Virus record (IMG/VR): IMGVR_UViG_3300044617_000210
Location: 1-25,986 of that record
DNA: 25,986 nt
Direction: 5' to 3' (one strand)
Source: a virus
The notes under the pieces are model-generated. The model was given only the letters and a program-made list of their open reading frames with translations. It had not been told where the DNA came from and did no database searches. A program made the translations under genes and the position numbers. Positions 10,841-22,182 of the stretch are shown piece by piece; position 1 is the first letter of the stretch; every line of letters begins with the position of its first letter.

Positions 10841-11776
10841 CTATGCGATTGAGGAAGAAGACTCAATGCGGTACAGAGCAGGCTCGCGGTAGCGGGCCCA
10901 TCCCTGCAGTGAGTACCAGCCGATCGGGCGGAAACGCATCAGGCGGTCCACAACCGGGCCAATCACCACGCCGGGCTCAACAGCGGTCGCCTCAGCGAGC
11001 GCCTGCTGGCCAGCAACAATGGTGCGGTACACCTTGATGCTAGAAGCACCATCGTTCGCCGTGAACGCACGCGGGGTTTCCACGAAGTACGCACCGTGCA
11101 TGACACCGACGACACCGCCAAGGATGTTGCCGACGTTGCCCTCGGTGTACTTACGGATGTCGTCGAAACTTCCGCTCCCGGTTTCTGCCCTAAGGTCATG
11201 GGTCACTTCGGGATGGCAATATGCGGCGTATAGTTGCCCCTCGCGAGGAACAGCCTTGTTCGCACGCAACTTTGCAACAACCTTACGGATGTCCGCAGCA
11301 GCGATGGTGTCCTCCGCAGCAACAGAGACCGTGGAGGTCGGGGTGGACGCGCCACCCGTGCCGTACTCCACGTTGGTGCCGCCGACAAGAACCGTGTTGA
11401 CCACGGCATCCAGCGAGTCAGCCATATTGAACGCCACAATGTTCGCAACTGCCGGGTCGATGTCGCTGAAAGCGAACTCACCCAACTTGCGAGTCTGCAG
11501 CACGGTGTTGCCGTACTCATTGAGCGTCACCGACACCGTGCTGATGTCGGAAAGCGCAACGGCATCCGGATCAGTGGTTTCAGTGAGAGTGGACGTGGCC
11601 GTGGCCAGGTCGTTGTAGATGGAGAACACGACCGACGATCCAGGCATAGCCTGCTGGACAGGGCGCTTGTCCGCGAGCGACCGCATAAGCGGCTGCGAAC
11701 GCAGAGCGAACTCCACGTAACGGTCATACGCTGCCTTTACAAGACCAGCAACAGCAGTTGTACTTGTGTAAGCCAC
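10841..11776 (-). CDS. Major capsid protein (N4gp56-like, HK97 fold expected)
   Basis: A 311-aa protein. Signature-like segments are LMRSLADKRPVQQAMPGSSV near residue 30, STLTETTDPDAVALSDI near 60, the strand VSVTLNEYGNTVLQTRKLGE near 80-98, and a C-terminal GWYSLQGWARYREPALYRI. I recognise the order as the N4gp56 family of major capsid proteins. About 415 such subunits would form a T=7 shell if the usual geometry holds. The gene has the best ribosome site in the window (AGGAGGTGA at 11783-11791, complement), fitting high expression. The scaffold gene lies upstream and a hairpin terminator downstream. Confidence 0.88.
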   Translation of the reverse strand: MAYTSTTAVAGLVKAAYDRYVEFALRSQPLMRSLADKRPVQQAMPGSSVVFSIYNDLATATSTLTETTDPDAVALSDISTVSVTLNEYGNTVLQTRKLGEFAFSDIDPAVANIVAFNMADSLDAVVNTVLVGGTNVEYGTGGASTPTSTVSVAAEDTIAAADIRKVVAKLRANKAVPREGQLYAAYCHPEVTHDLRAETGSGSFDDIRKYTEGNVGNILGGVVGVMHGAYFVETPRAFTANDGASSIKVYRTIVAGQQALAEATAVEPGVVIGPVVDRLMRFRPIGWYSLQGWARYREPALYRIESSSSIA

Positions 11777-11823: not shown

Positions 11824-12324
11824 CTAGAAGGCGTCAGGACCCTGAGTGGTTCCGAAGATCACCTTGTTCAACTCCTCCGGAGTGCGGGCACTACGGATGA
11901 GTGCAGCCACCTGATCGGAGTCCCCGTCAAATGGCTGCCCCGTGGACTGCATTTGGCTAATCTGCGTCAGCCCCGAAAGATCAGGGCCACCCGCCTCACC
12001 ATCAGAATCCACAGGCGCAGGAGCACCGCCGAAGATTTCGGCGTTCTCCTCAACCCAAGCCGACACATCCTCCTCAGAGGTCATGTCCTCGGGAATGAAC
12101 TTTGCGATCTTCGGGCTCAAGCCCTTAGCCGCGAGAACATCCTTGACGCTACGTTCACGAGTCTGCTGAGCCAGCCCAGTAAGCCGCTCAGTCAACTCCT
12201 TGATCTGCTTCTCCTTCGCACGGTTCTGCTTACGCAGTTCCCGAAGGACGTTGTTATCGGAGCCGCGAGCGTCCCCGCCGAACTCGTCGTCGTAATCGTC
12301 GTAGTCGTCCTCAATGCCTGACAT
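11824..12324 (-). CDS. Capsid scaffold protein
   Basis: A 166-aa, strongly acidic protein. Its N-terminus is MSGIEDDYDDYDDEFGG, a coiled coil follows at about residues 25-60 (LRELRKQNRAKEKQIKELTE), then VKDVLAAKGLSPKIAKFIPE, and a C-terminal helix near RSARTPEELNKVI. The composition, the coiled coil and the position directly before the major capsid gene are those of phage scaffolding proteins, which guide procapsid assembly and then leave. ATG at 12324 is preceded by GGGAG. No protease gene is seen nearby, so exit rather than cleavage is likely. Confidence 0.85.
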   Translation of the reverse strand: MSGIEDDYDDYDDEFGGDARGSDNNVLRELRKQNRAKEKQIKELTERLTGLAQQTRERSVKDVLAAKGLSPKIAKFIPEDMTSEEDVSAWVEENAEIFGGAPAPVDSDGEAGGPDLSGLTQISQMQSTGQPFDGDSDQVAALIRSARTPEELNKVIFGTTQGPDAF

Positions 12325-12439
12325 GGCACTCCCTAACTGTTATGAGATGAACGCAGACCACAGCACCACTGGGGGGTGGGGCTGGCTTCTGCTACCGGGC
12401 TCAATACGCGCACAAGGGCCGGTCGGTCTTGTTGCGGAG

Positions 12440-12518
12440 TGGAGGTGCCAGGAATCGAACCTGGGTTATGGTTCGCCGCCGTCAGCGGGCTAAGCGATCC
12501 AACTGTCCATTCACCCCC
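12440..12518 (-). tRNA. tRNA-like element, identity unresolved
   Basis: A 79-nt segment has a 7-bp acceptor stem (GGGGGTG 12512-12518 with CACCTCC 12441-12447, one G-U) and A73 at 12440. It also has a canonical T-arm (CCAGG-TTCGATT-CCTGG, 12448-12464). The 47 bases between acceptor and T-arm include AGTTGGA, like a D loop, but no good D stem. The anticodon arm is poor: a 3-bp stem with a U33-type loop would read GAC (valine); an alternative fold reads CUG without U33. It may be an unusual or decayed tRNA, or a tRNA mimic that recruits processing enzymes. No CCA is encoded. Confidence 0.55.
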
Positions 12519-12537
12519 CGGTGGCTAAATGCCACCG
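12519..12537 (-). promoter_or_regulatory. Hairpin spanning the stop codon, abutting the tRNA-like element
   Basis: A 7-bp stem (CGGTGGC 12519-12525 with GCCACCG 12531-12537) has the loop TAAAT and includes the stop codon of the 385-aa gene. In the transcript it directly precedes the tRNA-like acceptor stem. No T tract follows, so it is more likely an mRNA 3'-end stabiliser or processing landmark than a terminator. Confidence 0.5.
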
Positions 12538-13682
12538 CCCGACAAAGTGCCGGAAGTCGTTGACGACTGGCCGGAGAAGCGTGCACGTTCACGCGACTGC
12601 ATCTTCTTCACCCGCTGACCGGCCTGAGCGTCGATACCGAACTCGCCCTTCACCACGTCACGGTCAGAAACCCGCTCTTGGTCAATGCCTGACAGTCGGC
12701 GCGTCGAACGCGCCAGCCCGCCGATAGCATCGAACTGCGACCGCAACGTCCGCTCATCACCGAACGTGAGATCACCGATCTGCTCAGCAAGGCTCGTGTC
12801 ACCCATAGAGCCAAGGTCAATGCCCTGGCCACGAGCCACACCAGTAGCGAAGCCTGCGTTCACGCGGCGCTGCACCACCTCAAGAGCAGTCTCCGGTGCC
12901 AGTACATAGCCCAACATGTCCGACATGCCCACCCCATACAGGCCCACCAGGCTGTTCTTGATGTTCGGGTCAGCGTTGTCAATGACCTTCTTAGCCTGGC
13001 CGATACGTCCATCCACCTCGGTAGCGGACACATCCCCACCGATAAGGGTGGCAAGTTTGTCGCGGCTGTAGTAGTCGCCAGTCAAGCCGTACTTGCGCAT
13101 CGTGGACTTGATGGCATCCTCAGAAGACAGATACTCCGCTTCCGAAAGTGCGTTGTATCCATTCTTGATGCGGTCAGCGTTCCCTCTGAATCGCGTCTTG
13201 TAAGCCTCAGTGCCGCGCAAGCGAGACACGATGATGTTCGTGTTCGTGCCCCACTCTTTGATCAGTCCCGAAACGGTAGGGATGAGTTCCTCAAGCCCGT
13301 ACTGGCTAAGCAGGTCCGTCAGATACGACTCGGCGGTCTGCCGGTCACGCTGCTCCTTAGCCTCACGCTCACGCTTATCCGACTCGGACTCGTAGCCCTC
13401 CACATCGAACGGCACCCACACTTGGCCATTCCAGTAGAAGTCTTTGCCGGGCACGACAGGCTTAGGCGGAATCTCGCCAGTCTCAGGTTCCGTGTCGCCA
13501 TCCGATAGGGCTTGCGGCAGCGGAACTAGCGCCGCACCACCATGAGACTGCAGCACCCACTGCATACCGTCAGGAGCAGGCCCAAGTTCCTCAAGCGTCC
13601 ATGCCTCAGAAACACCCTGCACTGGCTTAGGGTCCGGCTTCGGCTTCTTGTCGTTCTTCGGGGGATTCCTATCTTTAGCCAC
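12525..13682 (-). CDS. Putative internal virion protein (385 aa)
   Basis: A helical, charged protein. A lysine/proline-rich N-terminus (about 1-25) leads to a short region with DFYWNGQVWVPFD. A charged helix follows near residues 95-115 (SDKREREAKEQRDRQTAESY), then a long helical body. The C-terminal segment (DRDVVKGEFGIDAQAGQRVK, then SRERARFSG) precedes a Ser/Gly tail. I recall similar endings (RDLI.GEF....A...L..LK.RE...F) in virion proteins of other actinobacterial phages. It is probably packaged in the head and ejected or part of an inner core. GTG at 13682 lies after AGGGG. Function is inferred from order and composition. Confidence 0.55.
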   Translation of the reverse strand: MAKDRNPPKNDKKPKPDPKPVQGVSEAWTLEELGPAPDGMQWVLQSHGGAALVPLPQALSDGDTEPETGEIPPKPVVPGKDFYWNGQVWVPFDVEGYESESDKREREAKEQRDRQTAESYLTDLLSQYGLEELIPTVSGLIKEWGTNTNIIVSRLRGTEAYKTRFRGNADRIKNGYNALSEAEYLSSEDAIKSTMRKYGLTGDYYSRDKLATLIGGDVSATEVDGRIGQAKKVIDNADPNIKNSLVGLYGVGMSDMLGYVLAPETALEVVQRRVNAGFATGVARGQGIDLGSMGDTSLAEQIGDLTFGDERTLRSQFDAIGGLARSTRRLSGIDQERVSDRDVVKGEFGIDAQAGQRVKKMQSRERARFSGQSSTTSGTLSGGGI

Positions 13683-14893: not shown

Positions 14894-15776
14894 TAAACAT
14901 GCCCCTCTTCTGCAAGTACTGCATCATCAAGTCAGCAGACTGTGAGCCAATCGTGTACTCGTTGTAATCCTTAGAATCACGCAGCGACTCCTGCAAGGCT
15001 GCAGTGCGGCCCTCAGCACCAAGGCCACCCTCCACCACCTGCACAGGGTTGCCCTTGTCGTCCACGTCCATGCGCACCGTCTGCGGACTGGACATTTCCA
15101 GTTCAGTCAGCGACTTGTAGTACGTCTTGAACTCACGATCCGTGACAGTGCGGCCAAGCATCTGCAGGCTCAACTGGTTGATCACCGCGCGAGCATCCTC
15201 GGGGTTCGTCAAGTTCACAGACCCGACAGAACCACCACCACCGAAGCCACCGCCACCGCCATACGAGTAGGACCCACTCCCACCCGACTGATCATCACCA
15301 AGGCTGACCCTGCCATCGGCAAGATCAGCCAGCAGAAGATCCGTGGGGGAGTAGTTCCTGCCAAAGCCGGTTTCGTATGCGGAGCGAGCCGCATACTCGT
15401 CAAAGACGGAGTTCACGTTAGACATGCCACCGCGCTCCTGCGCAACCGCATTGAACAGATCCCACTGCCAGCGCGGCAACGTGTTGACAAGATTGCCGCC
15501 TTGAGCCGTCGTGACCGGCACATAGTGGTAATACTGGCTGTAGTGCGTGTACATGCCAGGGCGAGCAGCGCCCTTAGGCCATGTCTGCAGGTTCTCCACA
15601 ATGGGTGTGCCCATGGCCACCTGGCCACGGTTAGCCGCTGCACTAGCCGTTGAACTGGGAGAATAGCCACCAGGCACATTCGGGTACGTGGAGACTGTCT
15701 CGCGGTTCTGTGCCGCTTCCTTGCGCTTCTGATACTCCGACCTGTCAGCCGAAGTAGGAACGTCGCCCCTAGCCAC
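14886..15776 (-). CDS. Putative virion protein (296 aa)
   Basis: An N-terminal polar half (about 1-120) contains many Tyr/Pro/Gln residues (TWPKGAARPGMYTHYSQYYHY). A glycine/serine linker follows near 165-190 (SGGSGSYSYGGGGGFGGGG). The C-terminal helical domain has AVINQLSLQMLGRTVTDREF and KDYNEYTIGSQSADLMMQYL. The frame extends to an ATG at 15791, but GTG at 15776 with GGAGGG five bases upstream is better and overlaps the previous stop by 8 bases. The bipartite layout with a flexible linker suggests an adaptor inside the particle. Function unknown. Confidence 0.6.
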   Translation of the reverse strand: MARGDVPTSADRSEYQKRKEAAQNRETVSTYPNVPGGYSPSSTASAAANRGQVAMGTPIVENLQTWPKGAARPGMYTHYSQYYHYVPVTTAQGGNLVNTLPRWQWDLFNAVAQERGGMSNVNSVFDEYAARSAYETGFGRNYSPTDLLLADLADGRVSLGDDQSGGSGSYSYGGGGGFGGGGSVGSVNLTNPEDARAVINQLSLQMLGRTVTDREFKTYYKSLTELEMSSPQTVRMDVDDKGNPVQVVEGGLGAEGRTAALQESLRDSKDYNEYTIGSQSADLMMQYLQKRGMFSG

Positions 15777-18700
15777 CGAAGCCCTCCACATCCCAGTTCT
15801 TCGACAGCGCCTTCGTCAACGTGTAGACGATGGTGCGGGCCGAATCCTCATCCACTACCTCAAGACCGGCAAGCCACGACGACACCGTGGCATCCCACGC
15901 TTCCTTGATCAGCGGTGACTCCTCAGCGAAATCCATGCTGTAATCAGTGCGCGCCCGGTTCATGTCATTCATGGCGTCAAGGTATGACTCAATCAGGCTC
16001 ATCGTTTCCTGAGCCTTACCGTTGCCGCGCGTAGCCAATTCACGGCCAGCCGTCACAATCTGATTAGCCTCGTCAATCCAGTCATCCCGGTCCTTCTGCT
16101 CGCGCAGATTCAAGCGCGTTTCAAGCCCCGAGAACTGGGTGACGAGCGCCCGCTTTGTGTCCTGCCAGGCAGTCTCAGCCAACGCATACTGCTCGTTGAT
16201 AGAGCCGTCAGGGTTGTACTTGGCGACACCGGCAGTGTCGGCCTCAAAGTCAGACTTGCTCAGAAGATACTGCTGGTAGGCGTACTGCGTGACAAGTTCA
16301 GTCCCGTACTGCTCAAGATCCTTGAACTCCGATGCATTGAACATCTGCATCGCCTTGTACGACTTGTACGACTCTTCGCCCGTGTTCGGGGCGAACACCG
16401 TCACACCGTTCGGCACCGTGTCCCACAGGTCACGGTTCTGTCGAATGTAATCGACATTCCCCGACAGGGGCTCCACGAAGCCGTACTCGGAACCCTTGCG
16501 TCGCGTCACCATGAACGCACCCGAGTTCGGGTTGGCCGCAGTCCACGAAATGTAGGCGTCCTCCCACGTCCTGCCGTTATCCGTGGACGCCGTGATGGCG
16601 TCCCGCAGGGCAGGAACCAGGGACTCCCAGCCAGCCTCACGGGCAGCAATCGTGAGATTGTCGTCCATGTACTGCGGCGAAGCCGGAGCCATAGTTCCGA
16701 AGATCAGCGACAGTAACGAAACTTGAATCGTGTGCCGGTCAAGATCCGCAAGGAACTTGCTGGCATTGTCACCCGTCACCCACTCTTCGGCAGTGGGTGC
16801 AAGACCGGCAGCAGCCATCAACATAAATGTCTTCATGGCAATCTTGTTGCCAAACGTGCCAGGCGGCTGACCGCCATACAGGGTGCCGCCCAGTGTGGCC
16901 AACTTCTTGAAGTTGGGGGGAAGTGCCGAGTACAGACTGGACGCGAACTCTCCGCCTAGCCCATCGTATGCCGACTCCACTGTGGTGTCAGCCGCGATAT
17001 CACCGAACAGGTTGGACTCAATCTGCTTGGCCGTGTCCTCGGACACCTGAGCGAACTCAGGAAGGTTCAAGAACTCAGTGAACATCGGCAAGCGGCGAAT
17101 GAGAGGCTGCAGGGACACTGCAGCCCACGGGCTTGACAGTGTGGGAATCCACTGGTTCGGGTCAGCCGAAGGGCTGATCCACTGCACGTTGCCACCGAAA
17201 GCGACCGGGGCTTGCGCGAACTTCGCATCCACGCCGATAGCAGCCAGGTGCGTCAATGCCGCACGGCTGAACGGGTACATGAAGTACGAGTTGCCGTACT
17301 GGTCATTGTTCACGAACCCGAAGTCCTGGCTGGCCTGCCACGCGAGGGTGGCCTTCCAGTAGGCAATCGGATCGTTCTTGCCCACACGGATTAGGCGTCT
17401 ACCGAAGTCCTCTACGGCGCGGTAGTAGCGGGCAATATTGCGCACACTCCACGCGAGTTGCGTGCGCGTCGCCGGATTGTCCACATACGCCATTGTCAGG
17501 TTGTAGGCACGCTCAGCCGCCAGGTCCGTAATCATCCGGTCGGCCTGGGCCTCACCGAAAATCTTGGCGTACTTGAGGCGCAGCGGCTCCAACTGGTAGG
17601 CGGCATCAAGGTAGTTGCCGTACCACAGGGGCTCACGGGTCATGCGGGCCAGCGAGCGGCCCATCGTTTCCCACGCCCAGTTCGTGAACCGCTCATACCC
17701 GCCACGAGTGGCAGGAAGTAGCGCAGGCTCACCCCGGTACACAAGGATCGACTCAGGTGCATCGAACGTGCCATCCATGAAGTCCATGTCGTGCACGACA
17801 GACTTCTGCTCAGCGTCATCCCAAATACGGAAGTACGCCCCGCCCTTATCGTCCTCGGTGCGCAGCGCCTTCCACAGCGACTCATTCCACTGGCCCCTGC
17901 GGGTAGTGAAAGTGGAAGCCATATCCGTGAGCAGGTCTTCCACGAACTTGAGTTCACCGTCTGTGGCGATCTTGCGGAACCGGGATGCGAACATAGGCCA
18001 GTCCTTGCCACGCCTCGCCTCAGCCAGCACCTCTTCCACGATCTCACGCATAGCAAGACCATTAGATGCACCAGCAGCGTTGTACGCCTCCCAGAAGCGG
18101 GGCAAGCGTTCAAGGGCAGCCTGACCAAGCCGACCGTTACCGACGATGAACTGCAAATGCTGCATCATCGCTCGCGCCTGATTCTCATTCAGACGCCCGC
18201 CGACACGCTCAGTCGTGTATCCGGCATCGAAGAAGATGCGCCGGAAAACCTCACCCTCAATGATGGTGTAGTCACCCATGTCATCAACGGCAGGGAACGT
18301 TCCGTCCGCAAGGTGCCGTGAAGTTTCGGCAGCATTGTCGCGGTAGATCGTGCCGTACTCAGACTTGAGGAGGCGTTCAGTGGCAGCCATGGCTTGCTGC
18401 TGACGTGGCGACAGTTCCGGAATATCCGCACCTCGGCGCAGACGAACAGGGATACCGCGCAGTTCCTTGTCCACGACCAGCATCAACTTGTTCCGAAGAA
18501 TGGCCTTGACCTGCAGGTCAGCAGCAGCCTCACGGCCACCCTCAGCAGCGAGCAGGCGCTCCTGCTTCGACGTGGTAGGCACGAGCCACTGCGAGAACCG
18601 GGCAGCCATATTGTCGTTGACGCGACCGCTCACCGCATCGCGTGACACGCGATCCGAAAGCCGCACAAGCGAAGTGCGAACGAAGCCGAGTTTCTGGTTG

Positions 18701-21700
18701 GCTCCGACCTTGTTGCTCTTCTCAAGATGCTGCAGCACATTAGCGGCACGCTTGAGCCGATCCTCAGCAACCCGCAGATCACGCTTGTCGATCTCACCGT
18801 TATCAAACTTCAAGCGAGCCGCATCAAGTTCCTCGGCAGCCTTCTTGCGATCCAGTGTCGCTGCACGCAGGCGCATGTCGTCACGAGCCGAAGCCTCACG
18901 AACCGTCTGGCTCAGTTTCCGGCCACGGGCAAAGTTGCCGACAGTGCCGCCAGTGAGCGCATACAGGCCCACATCCTCAACACCGTTACGCAACTGGAAG
19001 CGAGGCCCACCCAGGGTGCCCAGCACCCAGGCGTCCACGATGAGGGATGACACGTTGTTGCTGAACAGCAGCGCGTTGAGCATGGACTTGCGGGCCGTGT
19101 AACGATCTAGTGCGGCAAAGTTCGGCATCCATGCCACCGGACTTGTCTGCCCGATGTACTGCGCTGACGACAGTTCCCCACCCGCGTGCATACTGGGGGA
19201 CACGTAGGTGCGCAGTGCCCCACCTGGCTGACGGGCTTCCTTCTCAAGCGTGCGGGCAATAGTGGACACCGACTCCACAGGCGGGATGTCCTCACCAGCG
19301 GCCTTGGCTGCCTTAGCGGCTGCCTGCTGCTGGGCGTGAATGTCGTTAGCGGCCTTCTCAATGTCACGCATGACACCGCCGTGCCGGGCCACACTGAATG
19401 GTGCATGCAACTCACGGGAAGCAATACCCGTGACACGCTCAAGAACCTCGGCCTCCACCTCGGGAGCCACAAGGTGCATGCCATTAGCGCGCAGAGAACT
19501 GCGCACAATACCCGTGTACGCCACCATGCGAGCGTTCTCACTGGCACCGATCCAGAAGTCCTTGAACAGTGTGGCTGCAGCATGGTCGATGCCAGCCCAA
19601 CGCATGATCTGATACACCTTGTCCGCATCAGAAGCGTCAGCCGTCACGATGCCGAAACGTGAGTCAGGGAGCGTGGCACCTAGGCGACGCCAGCGATCCA
19701 CCTTCGCCACGACAGCCTCACTGAACGTGAGGTCGCCCCGTCCGAAGTACCAGCCACGGCGGCGATAGCCTTTGCGATCAGTGCCCAAGGCGGACGTTAG
19801 GCGCTCCCGGCTGCCGTAGGCGGTGACGAAGCGGTCAAGGAACCGGGCAACAGCAGTGCGCTGCCCACCGGAATCCATGGCCACGAAGTCACTCAGGCGT
19901 GCACCCACAAGGTCTGCGATGTCCTCGCTTCCCAAAGCCGTGAACAGCGCCTCGGTGCGCTCATCAGCGTTCATGGTGCGCCACTCAGGCACCACGTCAT
20001 CAAGCAGTTTCTCCATGCGGGCCACGCCGGGGCCGCCACGAGACATCACTGAACTGCCCAGGATTTTCCCCGACAGGGAGGCGAACGCCTCCGATGTGCG
20101 AGACATATGGGGCATCATGAGGGTGCGCTTCGGCCCCTGCGCAGCCTTCTGCATGCCTTCCGCACGCGCGGCATCCCACACGCGCTCAGGGTTGGGACGG
20201 GCAGCGCGAGCGGCCCGAGTTGCCTCCTGTCGCGCCTGCGCTCCGTACTGGCTCAGGAACTCAGCGCCCCGCTTGGACGGGTCAATAAATGGGAAGTTCA
20301 CGGGCTGGCCCTTGGCCAACTTCTCCGCAGTGTCAAGATCGTCGTAGAAGCGGGCCCAATCGTCAGCCGTGTAGAGTTTCCACTTCCTGCCCAGTTGAGC
20401 GAGGCCAGCGGAACCGTATAGGGCTTCACGCTTGATAAAGCGATTCAGCCGACTCTGAGCGTTCTTTTGCGCGGCCAGATTGGTGCCTTCGCGGACATCA
20501 TCCACAGCCTTGAGGGCCGCACCGAAACTGTCATACCAGCGGCGCACAGCCTTATCCCCACGGATAGCCGTCGCAACACTGCCACCGAATTGGTTAGCGT
20601 TTGCCGCCCAACGTGCAGCCTGCAGGCCCTTGACGATCGTGCCGCCGTACAGCAGCGGGTCCATGACGAACCACGACGATACGTTCGCCACGTCGCGTGT
20701 CGTGGAAAAGGCGAGGTTCTGCAGGTCGTTGTCAGGGTCCGGCTCAAGGCCAAACGTCTGCGCATACAAGTTGCCCCAGTTGCCCTGATCCAACGCAGCA
20801 ACCTCAACGAACAGGCTCGCGGCTGTGCGGTCACCGCCCGTGTCCGTGCCGTTGATCATCTGGTTGATCAACGCCTGCGCGTTTGGGTCGGACTCGTGAA
20901 GTCGCAGAAAGTTCTGCATGGCGTTCGGGTCTTCCGACTGCGTGGCCATGTAGAAGTCAACAGCAAGATCCACCGCGAAGTCACCGTACTCGGTGCGCAG
21001 CCCACTGAGGCCCTGCTGATTCAGTGCACCCGGTGCGGCACTGTCCCAAGCCTGTCGAAGCAGACCGAGCACTCCGCCCTCTTGCTCAGACCGAGGCGCA
21101 GCCGTCGTGTCCAGCAGTCCCGTGTCACCTTCTACCGCAGCGAACGGACTAACCGTGCGCAGCAGAATGTTTCCCGCACGTGACGCTTGAACGGAATACT
21201 GAAGCGGCACCATTAGTGCGTTCAGTATCGAATTGAAGCCCGTCATCAGGAGGTTCTCCTCCTCGCCCTCCACGGGCGCGGCAGAAGCAGCCTGAGCACC
21301 AACGCTCTCACCACGCACCGTGTCGGGTGTACCACCGCGAGTACCGGCAGCGCCACGAGCATTGGCGGCCTGCTCAGCGGCAGCGGCATGCTGCTTGCGC
21401 TCCTCGTCCACCAATGCAGCGACAAGCACACGCTGACGCGGGGGAAGGACTGAAACGATTTGCAGAGCCTTGTACTGCAGGCCCATCGTCAACAGTTCCG
21501 CAACCGTCTGCGACGTGCGCTTCGCGTAAAAGACTTCGGTGGCGTTAGCCACATCGCCCGGCTTCAAACCCTCTTCGGCAAGAGCCGACAGGGCACCAGG
21601 CGCATTATTGGTCAGCCATGCCACCTGCTCCCAGTAACCCTGCGGGGCGGCAAGGCCACCCCAGTTCGGGTAGCGGCCCGGAGTGGGGGAGTCATAGTCA

Positions 21701-22182
21701 GCCGACTGCGACTCCGCATCAGCACGCGACTCACCGGAGTAGTACGCCTTCTCCGTGGCCGACAACTGATCCGGCACGTACCCGCCGTCAGCGGAACGTG
21801 TGCCGTTCAAGAGTCCTTGCAGGAACTCGGCCTGTCGCTCCGCTGAATCAGCCAGCGACAAGCCACGAGCACCAAAGGGACGAAGCATGTTTGCGGCACG
21901 CCGAGCCTCAGTAATGCGCTGCTCAAGGCGATCCGCCGTAGACATATGCACCGTTCCCGGCGCGTACAACATGGGGTTCTGCGTGACCGGACGGTACCGG
22001 GCAGGACCCATCGGGATCGGGGCCGTCTGCATGAACACAGGGTCCATGGATGCAGTGGGGAACTCCATCGTGGAGGTCTGCTGGATGCGGCCCACCACAC
22101 CAAGGTTCGATGCGCCAGTCACATACGCAGGAGGATTCTTGCTCTCCTGATTCGCTCGCTCTTTGCGAGTGTATTCAGCCAC
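15769..22182 (-). CDS. Giant virion-associated / ejection protein (2137 aa)
   Basis: By far the largest gene here (6.4 kb). Visible features: a Pro/Gln-rich N-terminus; Ala-rich helical stretches; a probable coiled coil near residues 1095-1165 (RKKAAEELDAARLKFDNGEI); a hydrophobic/aromatic segment near 1625-1680 (NSYFMYPFSRAALTHLAAIG); and helical C-terminal repeats. There is no signal peptide, no regular tape-measure periodicity and no convincing polymerase or lysozyme motif. It lies among putative internal proteins in a phage without a visible long-tail module. I therefore infer a head-packaged ejection protein, analogous in role to T7 gp16 or other giant internal proteins. The GTG start shares one base with the upstream stop (TAGTG). 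An enzyme domain too divergent to see is possible. Confidence 0.6.
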   Translation of the reverse strand: MAEYTRKERANQESKNPPAYVTGASNLGVVGRIQQTSTMEFPTASMDPVFMQTAPIPMGPARYRPVTQNPMLYAPGTVHMSTADRLEQRITEARRAANMLRPFGARGLSLADSAERQAEFLQGLLNGTRSADGGYVPDQLSATEKAYYSGESRADAESQSADYDSPTPGRYPNWGGLAAPQGYWEQVAWLTNNAPGALSALAEEGLKPGDVANATEVFYAKRTSQTVAELLTMGLQYKALQIVSVLPPRQRVLVAALVDEERKQHAAAAEQAANARGAAGTRGGTPDTVRGESVGAQAASAAPVEGEEENLLMTGFNSILNALMVPLQYSVQASRAGNILLRTVSPFAAVEGDTGLLDTTAAPRSEQEGGVLGLLRQAWDSAAPGALNQQGLSGLRTEYGDFAVDLAVDFYMATQSEDPNAMQNFLRLHESDPNAQALINQMINGTDTGGDRTAASLFVEVAALDQGNWGNLYAQTFGLEPDPDNDLQNLAFSTTRDVANVSSWFVMDPLLYGGTIVKGLQAARWAANANQFGGSVATAIRGDKAVRRWYDSFGAALKAVDDVREGTNLAAQKNAQSRLNRFIKREALYGSAGLAQLGRKWKLYTADDWARFYDDLDTAEKLAKGQPVNFPFIDPSKRGAEFLSQYGAQARQEATRAARAARPNPERVWDAARAEGMQKAAQGPKRTLMMPHMSRTSEAFASLSGKILGSSVMSRGGPGVARMEKLLDDVVPEWRTMNADERTEALFTALGSEDIADLVGARLSDFVAMDSGGQRTAVARFLDRFVTAYGSRERLTSALGTDRKGYRRRGWYFGRGDLTFSEAVVAKVDRWRRLGATLPDSRFGIVTADASDADKVYQIMRWAGIDHAAATLFKDFWIGASENARMVAYTGIVRSSLRANGMHLVAPEVEAEVLERVTGIASRELHAPFSVARHGGVMRDIEKAANDIHAQQQAAAKAAKAAGEDIPPVESVSTIARTLEKEARQPGGALRTYVSPSMHAGGELSSAQYIGQTSPVAWMPNFAALDRYTARKSMLNALLFSNNVSSLIVDAWVLGTLGGPRFQLRNGVEDVGLYALTGGTVGNFARGRKLSQTVREASARDDMRLRAATLDRKKAAEELDAARLKFDNGEIDKRDLRVAEDRLKRAANVLQHLEKSNKVGANQKLGFVRTSLVRLSDRVSRDAVSGRVNDNMAARFSQWLVPTTSKQERLLAAEGGREAAADLQVKAILRNKLMLVVDKELRGIPVRLRRGADIPELSPRQQQAMAATERLLKSEYGTIYRDNAAETSRHLADGTFPAVDDMGDYTIIEGEVFRRIFFDAGYTTERVGGRLNENQARAMMQHLQFIVGNGRLGQAALERLPRFWEAYNAAGASNGLAMREIVEEVLAEARRGKDWPMFASRFRKIATDGELKFVEDLLTDMASTFTTRRGQWNESLWKALRTEDDKGGAYFRIWDDAEQKSVVHDMDFMDGTFDAPESILVYRGEPALLPATRGGYERFTNWAWETMGRSLARMTREPLWYGNYLDAAYQLEPLRLKYAKIFGEAQADRMITDLAAERAYNLTMAYVDNPATRTQLAWSVRNIARYYRAVEDFGRRLIRVGKNDPIAYWKATLAWQASQDFGFVNNDQYGNSYFMYPFSRAALTHLAAIGVDAKFAQAPVAFGGNVQWISPSADPNQWIPTLSSPWAAVSLQPLIRRLPMFTEFLNLPEFAQVSEDTAKQIESNLFGDIAADTTVESAYDGLGGEFASSLYSALPPNFKKLATLGGTLYGGQPPGTFGNKIAMKTFMLMAAAGLAPTAEEWVTGDNASKFLADLDRHTIQVSLLSLIFGTMAPASPQYMDDNLTIAAREAGWESLVPALRDAITASTDNGRTWEDAYISWTAANPNSGAFMVTRRKGSEYGFVEPLSGNVDYIRQNRDLWDTVPNGVTVFAPNTGEESYKSYKAMQMFNASEFKDLEQYGTELVTQYAYQQYLLSKSDFEADTAGVAKYNPDGSINEQYALAETAWQDTKRALVTQFSGLETRLNLREQKDRDDWIDEANQIVTAGRELATRGNGKAQETMSLIESYLDAMNDMNRARTDYSMDFAEESPLIKEAWDATVSSWLAGLEVVDEDSARTIVYTLTKALSKNWDVEGFGG

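Follow-up and report, generated by a model that had tools for sequence, protein, structure and literature searches.

Phage RNAs that resemble the tRNA-like domain of tmRNA without a message domain, found mostly at a conserved late-operon site

A tRNA-like element in the late operon

In the late operon of the phage DNA analyzed here (the window, 25,986 nt), a tRNA-like element lies on the minus strand directly ahead of the scaffold and capsid genes, which raises the question of what kind of RNA it is and why it is located there. A preliminary description of the locus had proposed a canonical acceptor stem and T-arm flanking a body without normal D and anticodon arms, and folding bore out both proposals. 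The element is 79 nt long (12440..12518; G1 at 12518, A73 at 12440). Its 5′ acceptor strand GGGGGUG (12512..12518) pairs with CACCUCC (12441..12447), including a G3·U70 wobble (12516 with 12443), and A73 follows 3′ of the stem. An unpaired D-loop-like segment, AAUGGACAGU (12502..12511), contains GG and has no D-stem; it is followed by a P2-like helix with an A·A mismatch, capped by a short hairpin in the place of an mRNA-like domain (12469..12501), and by a T-arm with the loop UUCGAUU (12448..12464), all on the minus strand. The body is thus a single long hairpin instead of a D-arm and an anticodon arm. A tRNA scan revealed no ordinary tRNA with full arms: ARAGORN made no call at the element, and the Rfam tRNA model RF00005 gave 24.2 bits, below its cut-off of 29 bits. 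The fold of 12439-12537, which includes a hairpin at the 5′ end, reached −44.8 kcal/mol (z −3.42; none of 200 shuffles equal), and that of 12439-12517, the element minus its first base, gave z −1.15, with 28 of 200 shuffles as good. Because the element on its own has an unremarkable fold energy, we used conservation as evidence instead, and conservation is the feature of the element that goes beyond chance.

The element had been placed between internal-protein genes and the scaffold/capsid genes. The position stands, but the upstream gene (12525..13682, minus strand) matches PHROG 8424, a group of unknown function; its 385-aa product is a distant homologue of gene 13 of Streptomyces phage FlowerPower (28.7% identity over 68%). 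The 7-bp hairpin described at the stop codon of this gene (12525-12527) is present on the minus strand at 12519..12537 and abuts the 5′ end of the element. It did not hold up as a companion of the element, however. Judged by our own criterion over 45 loci, the hairpin was absent from 12 of 26 loci with a tRNA-like domain (TLD) of the kind described below and present in 11 of 19 loci without one, and we rejected it as part of a conserved unit.

Downstream, the minus strand carries a putative scaffold gene (11824..12324; PHROG 7813, unknown function, 3e-31, and PHROG 3760, head scaffolding, 5e-6) and the major capsid protein gene (10841..11776; PHROG 1357, Pfam PF13252). The leader of the scaffold gene contains a second conserved RNA (12353..12432, minus strand), made of a hairpin, a pseudoknot and another hairpin. 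In 23 sequences, from which the structure itself was drawn, 92.7% of cells were paired and covariation was 0.612 versus 0.208 after shuffling; the pseudoknot stem covaries (ACCGG/CCGGU, ACCAG/CUGGU, AUCGG/CCGAU). This leader RNA occurs with or without a TLD (in the window, L008, L012, L045 and others), and the regular expression used to find it missed 40 of 74 loci. It had no credible match in Rfam, the one overlapping hit being to RF04321 with an E-value of 4.2. It may serve the scaffold-capsid genes as a translational operator. Elsewhere in the window, a 2137-aa late-operon protein (15769-22182, minus strand) matched no Pfam or PHROG family at our thresholds, and a tRNA-Leu (gag; 16-102) adjoins an integrase-family gene (261-1406; PHROG 1) in what is probably a temperate-phage att region.

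Relatives of the element and the slot they occupy

Relatives were collected from environmental phage contigs using the 385-aa and capsid proteins as queries, and a T-loop with an acceptor stem was seen at the same place in many of them. At the DNA level, the 2 kb around the element matched nothing in a phage collection, capsid searches of genome contigs (with a single sequence and with an alignment) gave no named hosts of close relatives, and the element, searched against plasmids, gave short Sinorhizobium matches only. Candidates for an alignment came from a regular expression that demanded U70, G or A at position 3, at least six of the seven acceptor pairs and at least four of the five pairs of the T-stem. 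Of its 99 candidates, 33, mostly ARAGORN tRNA calls or tRNA-rich loci and with L165 among them, were set aside before folding; we aligned the window element with 33 of the other 66, chosen for similar length and fold (alignment A1, 34 sequences). A1 has four helices with compensatory changes in each, helices 2 and 3 covarying and the T-stem being 99.4% paired with double changes at four of its five pairs. Paired cells amounted to 91.5% versus 66.5% after shuffling, and covariation to 0.577 versus 0.136, with every slid version far lower, although these counts lean towards structure because the rows were picked by fold. A fairer check of the acceptor and T-stem came from 26 distinct hits in the slot selected solely by the letters of the T-loop and inner T-stem. 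A full 7-bp acceptor partner lay 35-100 nt upstream in 25 of the 26, whereas, depending on the locus, 1-29% of same-composition shuffles reached a 7-bp acceptor. By our reading, these hits are 20 TLDs, five ordinary tRNAs and one chance hit (L008).

A covariance model built from A1 (R1) scored the window element, one of its own 34 training rows, at 77.5 bits (E 2.5e-19). Besides the window, 42 of the 87 loci collected had R1 matches at E<1e-6, L056-L086 having been searched with R1 alone; the next matches below the TLDs were the tRNA-Ala genes of Streptomyces phages FlowerPower and Stella, at 31-32 bits (best 31.7). Among the 45 loci without a strong match, some have too little upstream DNA and several have only a short gap in the slot. 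Measured in 38 of the R1-positive loci, the distance from the start of the element to the capsid gene downstream is 713-974 nt. A second set was anchored on a T-loop/acceptor pattern, and many of its loci are contigs of the gene-anchored first set. R1 gave at least 36.5 bits in 76 of these 99 loci, followed by a tRNA-Ala at 34.6 bits. In 29 of 40 RNA-anchored picks, a capsid homologue with 36-85% identity lies about 630-810 nt downstream, counted from the 5′ end (plus strand) or the 3′ end (minus strand); one pick (L119) is a first-set contig, and 7 of the 11 without a capsid homologue had more than 800 nt of downstream DNA. Since the capsid-linked site recurs at 36-85% capsid identity, the late-operon site of the TLD looks old.

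The family also extends beyond this site and varies in form. Unannotated TLDs lie near or among the tRNA genes of the isolated Streptomyces phages LuckySocke, GiJojo, Alone3 and Shaeky, scoring 68.9, 68.9, 66.7 and 57.1 bits on R1 and 57.1, 57.4, 36.8 and 59.3 bits on the Rfam tmRNA model RF00023, respectively; in GiJojo, the annotation places a hypothetical protein across the TLD. Other members occur in environmental tRNA arrays (L328, L331, L332, L338). Reduced forms without P2, of 45 nt (L095, L174) or 41 nt (L127, only 25.4 bits), retain the acceptor, the GG segment and the T-arm. We excluded from the TLD count those BLAST hits in named phages that were weak or that turned out to represent ordinary tRNAs, tmRNAs of the full or permuted type, or sequence beside an integrase gene. 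In FlowerPower (L087 9917-9984) and Stella (L088 3609-3678), we also noted an unannotated tRNA-like gene between tRNA-Asn and tRNA-Val, with an apparent anticodon CCU by eye.

The contents of the slot bear on the mechanism that the preliminary description put forward, tRNA punctuation, by which RNase P and 3′ processing could cut the late transcript at the element, between the upstream genes and those for scaffold and capsid. The conserved site directly before the scaffold leader is in line with this idea, and so is the filling of the slot by tRNAs instead of or beside the TLD: FlowerPower and Stella have 21 tRNAs each in the slot, L026 has a tRNA-Tyr replacing the TLD (with a like sequence in L082), and L021, L027 and L043 have an extra tRNA beside it. 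Slot hairpins in L031, L033, L044 and L047, which by eye look like minimal acceptor/T-arm remnants without G3·U70, point the same way. Punctuation needs neither G3·U70 and A73 nor tmRNA-like D-loops, however, several relatives have a short elementless gap at the site, and members also occur in tRNA arrays without this capsid type in the available DNA. As the main reason for the element it is unlikely, but a unit of this kind would naturally lead RNase P and 3′ processing to cut the late transcript, and such cutting is compatible with another function as a by-product.

tmRNA-like rather than tRNA-like identity

When six relatives were compared with all of Rfam, four were assigned to RF00023 and aligned with the model end to end (1-374), with 294-326 model positions, corresponding to the mRNA-like domain, deleted and 9-41 nt in their place. 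RF00023 and RF00005 were then both run on 50 gene-anchored and 48 pattern-anchored records. RF00023 reported 23 TLD places in the gene-anchored records; RF00005 was silent at seven of these, and wherever both models reported, RF00023 won (16 of 16; for example, 43.2 versus 34.3 bits in L040). RF00005 alone matched at the TLD places of G001, G008, G034 and G036, the last at 34.3 bits and thus above the tRNA cut-off, and likewise in the window; among the matches listed for the second set, G053, G061, G068, G073 and G086 had one RF00005 match each and none to RF00023. Five tRNA-Ala controls gave tRNA/tmRNA bits of 69.2/24.1, 73.7/29.3, 71.8/24.2, 54.4/18.6 and 54.6/21.7 among the matches listed, and full-length phage tmRNAs gave 94-150 bits on RF00023. 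Because archaeal control genomes also gave sub-threshold RF00023 matches, it is the comparison of model against model, and not the raw hit, that constitutes the evidence.

Detection by RF00023 was uneven. No match was reported for the window itself, and the sequence-identical element of L007 scored 31.9 bits; the model could pick up a copy in one record and pass over an identical one in another, and L007 and L041 were silent in some scans. One of the 50 gene-anchored records and five of the 48 pattern-anchored ones, including a full-length tmRNA, exceeded the cut-off of 47 bits, with TLD relatives reaching 50.6 (L049), 54.6 and, in the named phages, 59.3 bits. An mRNA-like domain with a tag frame and stop is absent, being deleted in the four relatives assigned to RF00023, and the stop in the cap is not conserved; we therefore did not file the element as a functional tmRNA. 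A 324-nt tmRNA called by ARAGORN in L250, ending beside the TLD, is probably a false long version. Judged by the models, the element groups with tmRNA within the tRNA/tmRNA clan, without the mRNA-like domain, and it looks like the TLD of a tmRNA that has no message domain.

This comparison, together with conservation, contradicts the earlier suggestion of an atypical or decaying ordinary tRNA. Such a tRNA would account for the sub-threshold RF00005 score of the window, for the 34.3 bits of L039/L040, which exceed the tRNA cut-off, and for the ARAGORN labels tRNA-Pro (L043) and tRNA-Leu (L165). The helices are nevertheless maintained by compensatory change, in A1 rows picked for similar fold, the anticodon arm is not conserved, and the tmRNA model prevails at all 16 places where both models report, so that we consider this explanation very improbable.

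Still less credible is the idea that the element belongs to an attP site, or to a permuted tmRNA, as its 3′ portion. Weak RF04321 hits do fall on the T-arm and 3′ acceptor strand, and phages Niklas and Squirty have weak TLD-like matches beside integrase genes. Both acceptor strands, however, lie within 79 nt and covary, and the integrase-family gene of the window adjoins the tRNA-Leu, 11 kb off. A permuted tmRNA, with a separate coding piece and reversed ends, failed as a candidate: the window matched RF04321 at 18.9 bits (E 4.2), whereas true permuted tmRNAs of four named phages gave 103-119 bits. These four genes, in Pseudomonas phage SM1 (L192), Xanthomonas phage Rb1 (L195), Synechococcus phage BUCT-ZZ01 (L196) and Rhodobacter phage RcSimone-Hastad (L208), have no tmRNA annotation in the stretches examined. 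In Gordonia phage GMA2, a match to the Pistol ribozyme (L207 1140-1196; 56.8 bits against a cut-off of 34.5) has a full tmRNA on one side and tRNA genes on the other. Equally hard to credit is a tmRNA whose cap encodes a two-codon tag (GCC GCA UGA, Ala-Ala-stop), for in 24 of the 50 elements that carry the cap motif there is no in-frame stop before the element ends, even though a third-codon stop occurs in nine of the 50 and two-residue Ala-Ala tags are known in bacteria, as mentioned in PMC11915505.

The bases that specify alanine are nearly invariant in the family. Among 30 distinct gene-anchored sequences, the window included, G3·U70 is present in 29 and A73 in all, the sole G3-C70 being that of L029/L030; acceptor pairs 4 and 5 are variable. 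Both G3·U70 and A73 were found in 17 of 17 distinct sequences from a cap-anchored scan without acceptor constraint, in three of three from the named Streptomyces phages, and in all 20 TLDs selected by T-loop letters. The gene-anchored, cap-anchored and T-loop-letter sets give the fair counts of G3·U70, although the first two rest on hits of R1, a model whose training sequences had G3·U70. The cap-anchored and Streptomyces rows number 24, namely 20 cap-anchored loci (17 distinct; L262 and L013 are the same contig) and four loci of named Streptomyces phages, which came from BLAST (three distinct). The cap scan covered 79 of 120 stretches (eight with a TLD) and 13 new loci (12 with a TLD), and its three further weak R1 matches each overlapped ARAGORN tRNAs. 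ARAGORN called 13 genes that by our reading have G3·U70 and A73, ten of them as tRNA-Ala and three otherwise (L043, L165 and L132); R1 gave 57.5 bits for L043 and 43.7 bits for L165. For L133, an ARAGORN tRNA-Ala, the regular expression had picked the wrong 5′ strand. G3·U70 is the alanine determinant, and the tmRNA acceptor carries it. The TLD of tmRNA resembles tRNA-Ala and is charged with alanine, as stated in PMC8012679. The near-invariance of G3·U70 and A73 suggests that charging matters, and on this comparative evidence alanine charging of the TLD probably does matter in nature.

Known relatives and a possible role in ribosome rescue

A TLD-only tmRNA of Mycobacterium phage DS6A was reportedly described by Mao et al. 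in 2009. DS6A is listed as a 'TLD only' phage tmRNA, and a molecule similar to that of DS6A, chargeable or not, is stated to inhibit tmRNA strongly, perhaps by titrating SmpB (PMC4131195); the DS6A form is also described as inhibiting endogenous tmRNA in E. coli (PMC11915505). As these sources describe it, the DS6A RNA is like the element in being phage-encoded, with little beyond a TLD and no tag frame (PMC4131195, PMC11915505). The comparison is one of descriptions, and in it DS6A is one phage, whereas the family reported here is broad, has a mostly conserved late-operon site and a P2 cap, and includes the 41-45 nt forms. By model comparison, the element is a tmRNA TLD standing alone in a phage. 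The canonical one-piece tmRNA (RF00023) shares with it the G3·U70 acceptor, A73, a stemless D-loop (GGUUUCGAC, kept literally in some members), P2 and the T-arm, but the element lacks the entire mRNA-like domain, the pseudoknots and the tag. The CDS-less tmRNAs of mitochondria and plastids likewise have a tRNA-like part without a tag frame (PMC11915505); unlike the element, they are organellar and have no phage operon context, and the mitochondrial ones are usually permuted. tRNA-Ala has G3·U70 and A73 in common with the element, which differs in having neither a D-stem nor an anticodon arm and in being preferred by the tmRNA model. tmRNA genes have been counted in 402 of 18,146 phage genomes (PMC9004378), and the text that accompanies this count makes no mention of TLD-only forms. 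In the open-licence literature, as far as its available text goes, DS6A was the only phage found with such an RNA, and others elsewhere are possible. What is new here is thus the breadth of the family, its mostly fixed late-operon site and the P2 cap, the kind of RNA being known already from DS6A.

We favor, at a probability of about 0.6, the interpretation that the element is a TLD with a P2 cap in place of the lost mRNA-like domain, which would be processed, charged with alanine and made to compete with host tmRNA. Its architecture, conservation, alanine identity bases and late-operon site come from comparison of the sequences, as does the finding that its cap conserves no tag frame; from these we infer release by tRNA enzymes, alanylation, and binding to SmpB and EF-Tu. 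Host RNase P, 3′ trimming and CCA addition would release the TLD from the late transcript, the cut just before the scaffold-capsid leader being a likely by-product, and alanyl-tRNA synthetase would charge it. The charged TLD would then bind SmpB and EF-Tu and, late in infection, act as a decoy or tag-less acceptor that competes for stalled ribosomes with the tmRNA of the host, sparing nascent phage proteins from degradation tagging. Since published inhibition needs no charging, a pure SmpB sponge would not explain the conserved G3·U70.

A bolder version of this interpretation, which we put forward tentatively and would not bet on, is that the RNA acts as a chargeable, tag-less rescue factor. 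Alanylated TLD with host SmpB would take over the nascent chains of stalled ribosomes without offering a tag, its dose would be tied to transcription of the capsid operon, and its release would set the 5′ end of the scaffold-capsid mRNA. If true, ribosome rescue in the host would change, late in infection, from a destructive into a non-destructive process.

The TLD family is widespread and structurally conserved, and it has been mostly missed by ARAGORN and lies mostly under the Rfam cut-off. That its alanine identity is nearly invariant suggests a role for charging, something that a simple SmpB sponge could do without. Through this RNA, the phage can probably interfere with or re-route host ribosome rescue, and the presence of TLDs in LuckySocke, GiJojo, Alone3 and Shaeky makes the handling of ribosome rescue by phages testable in laboratory strains.
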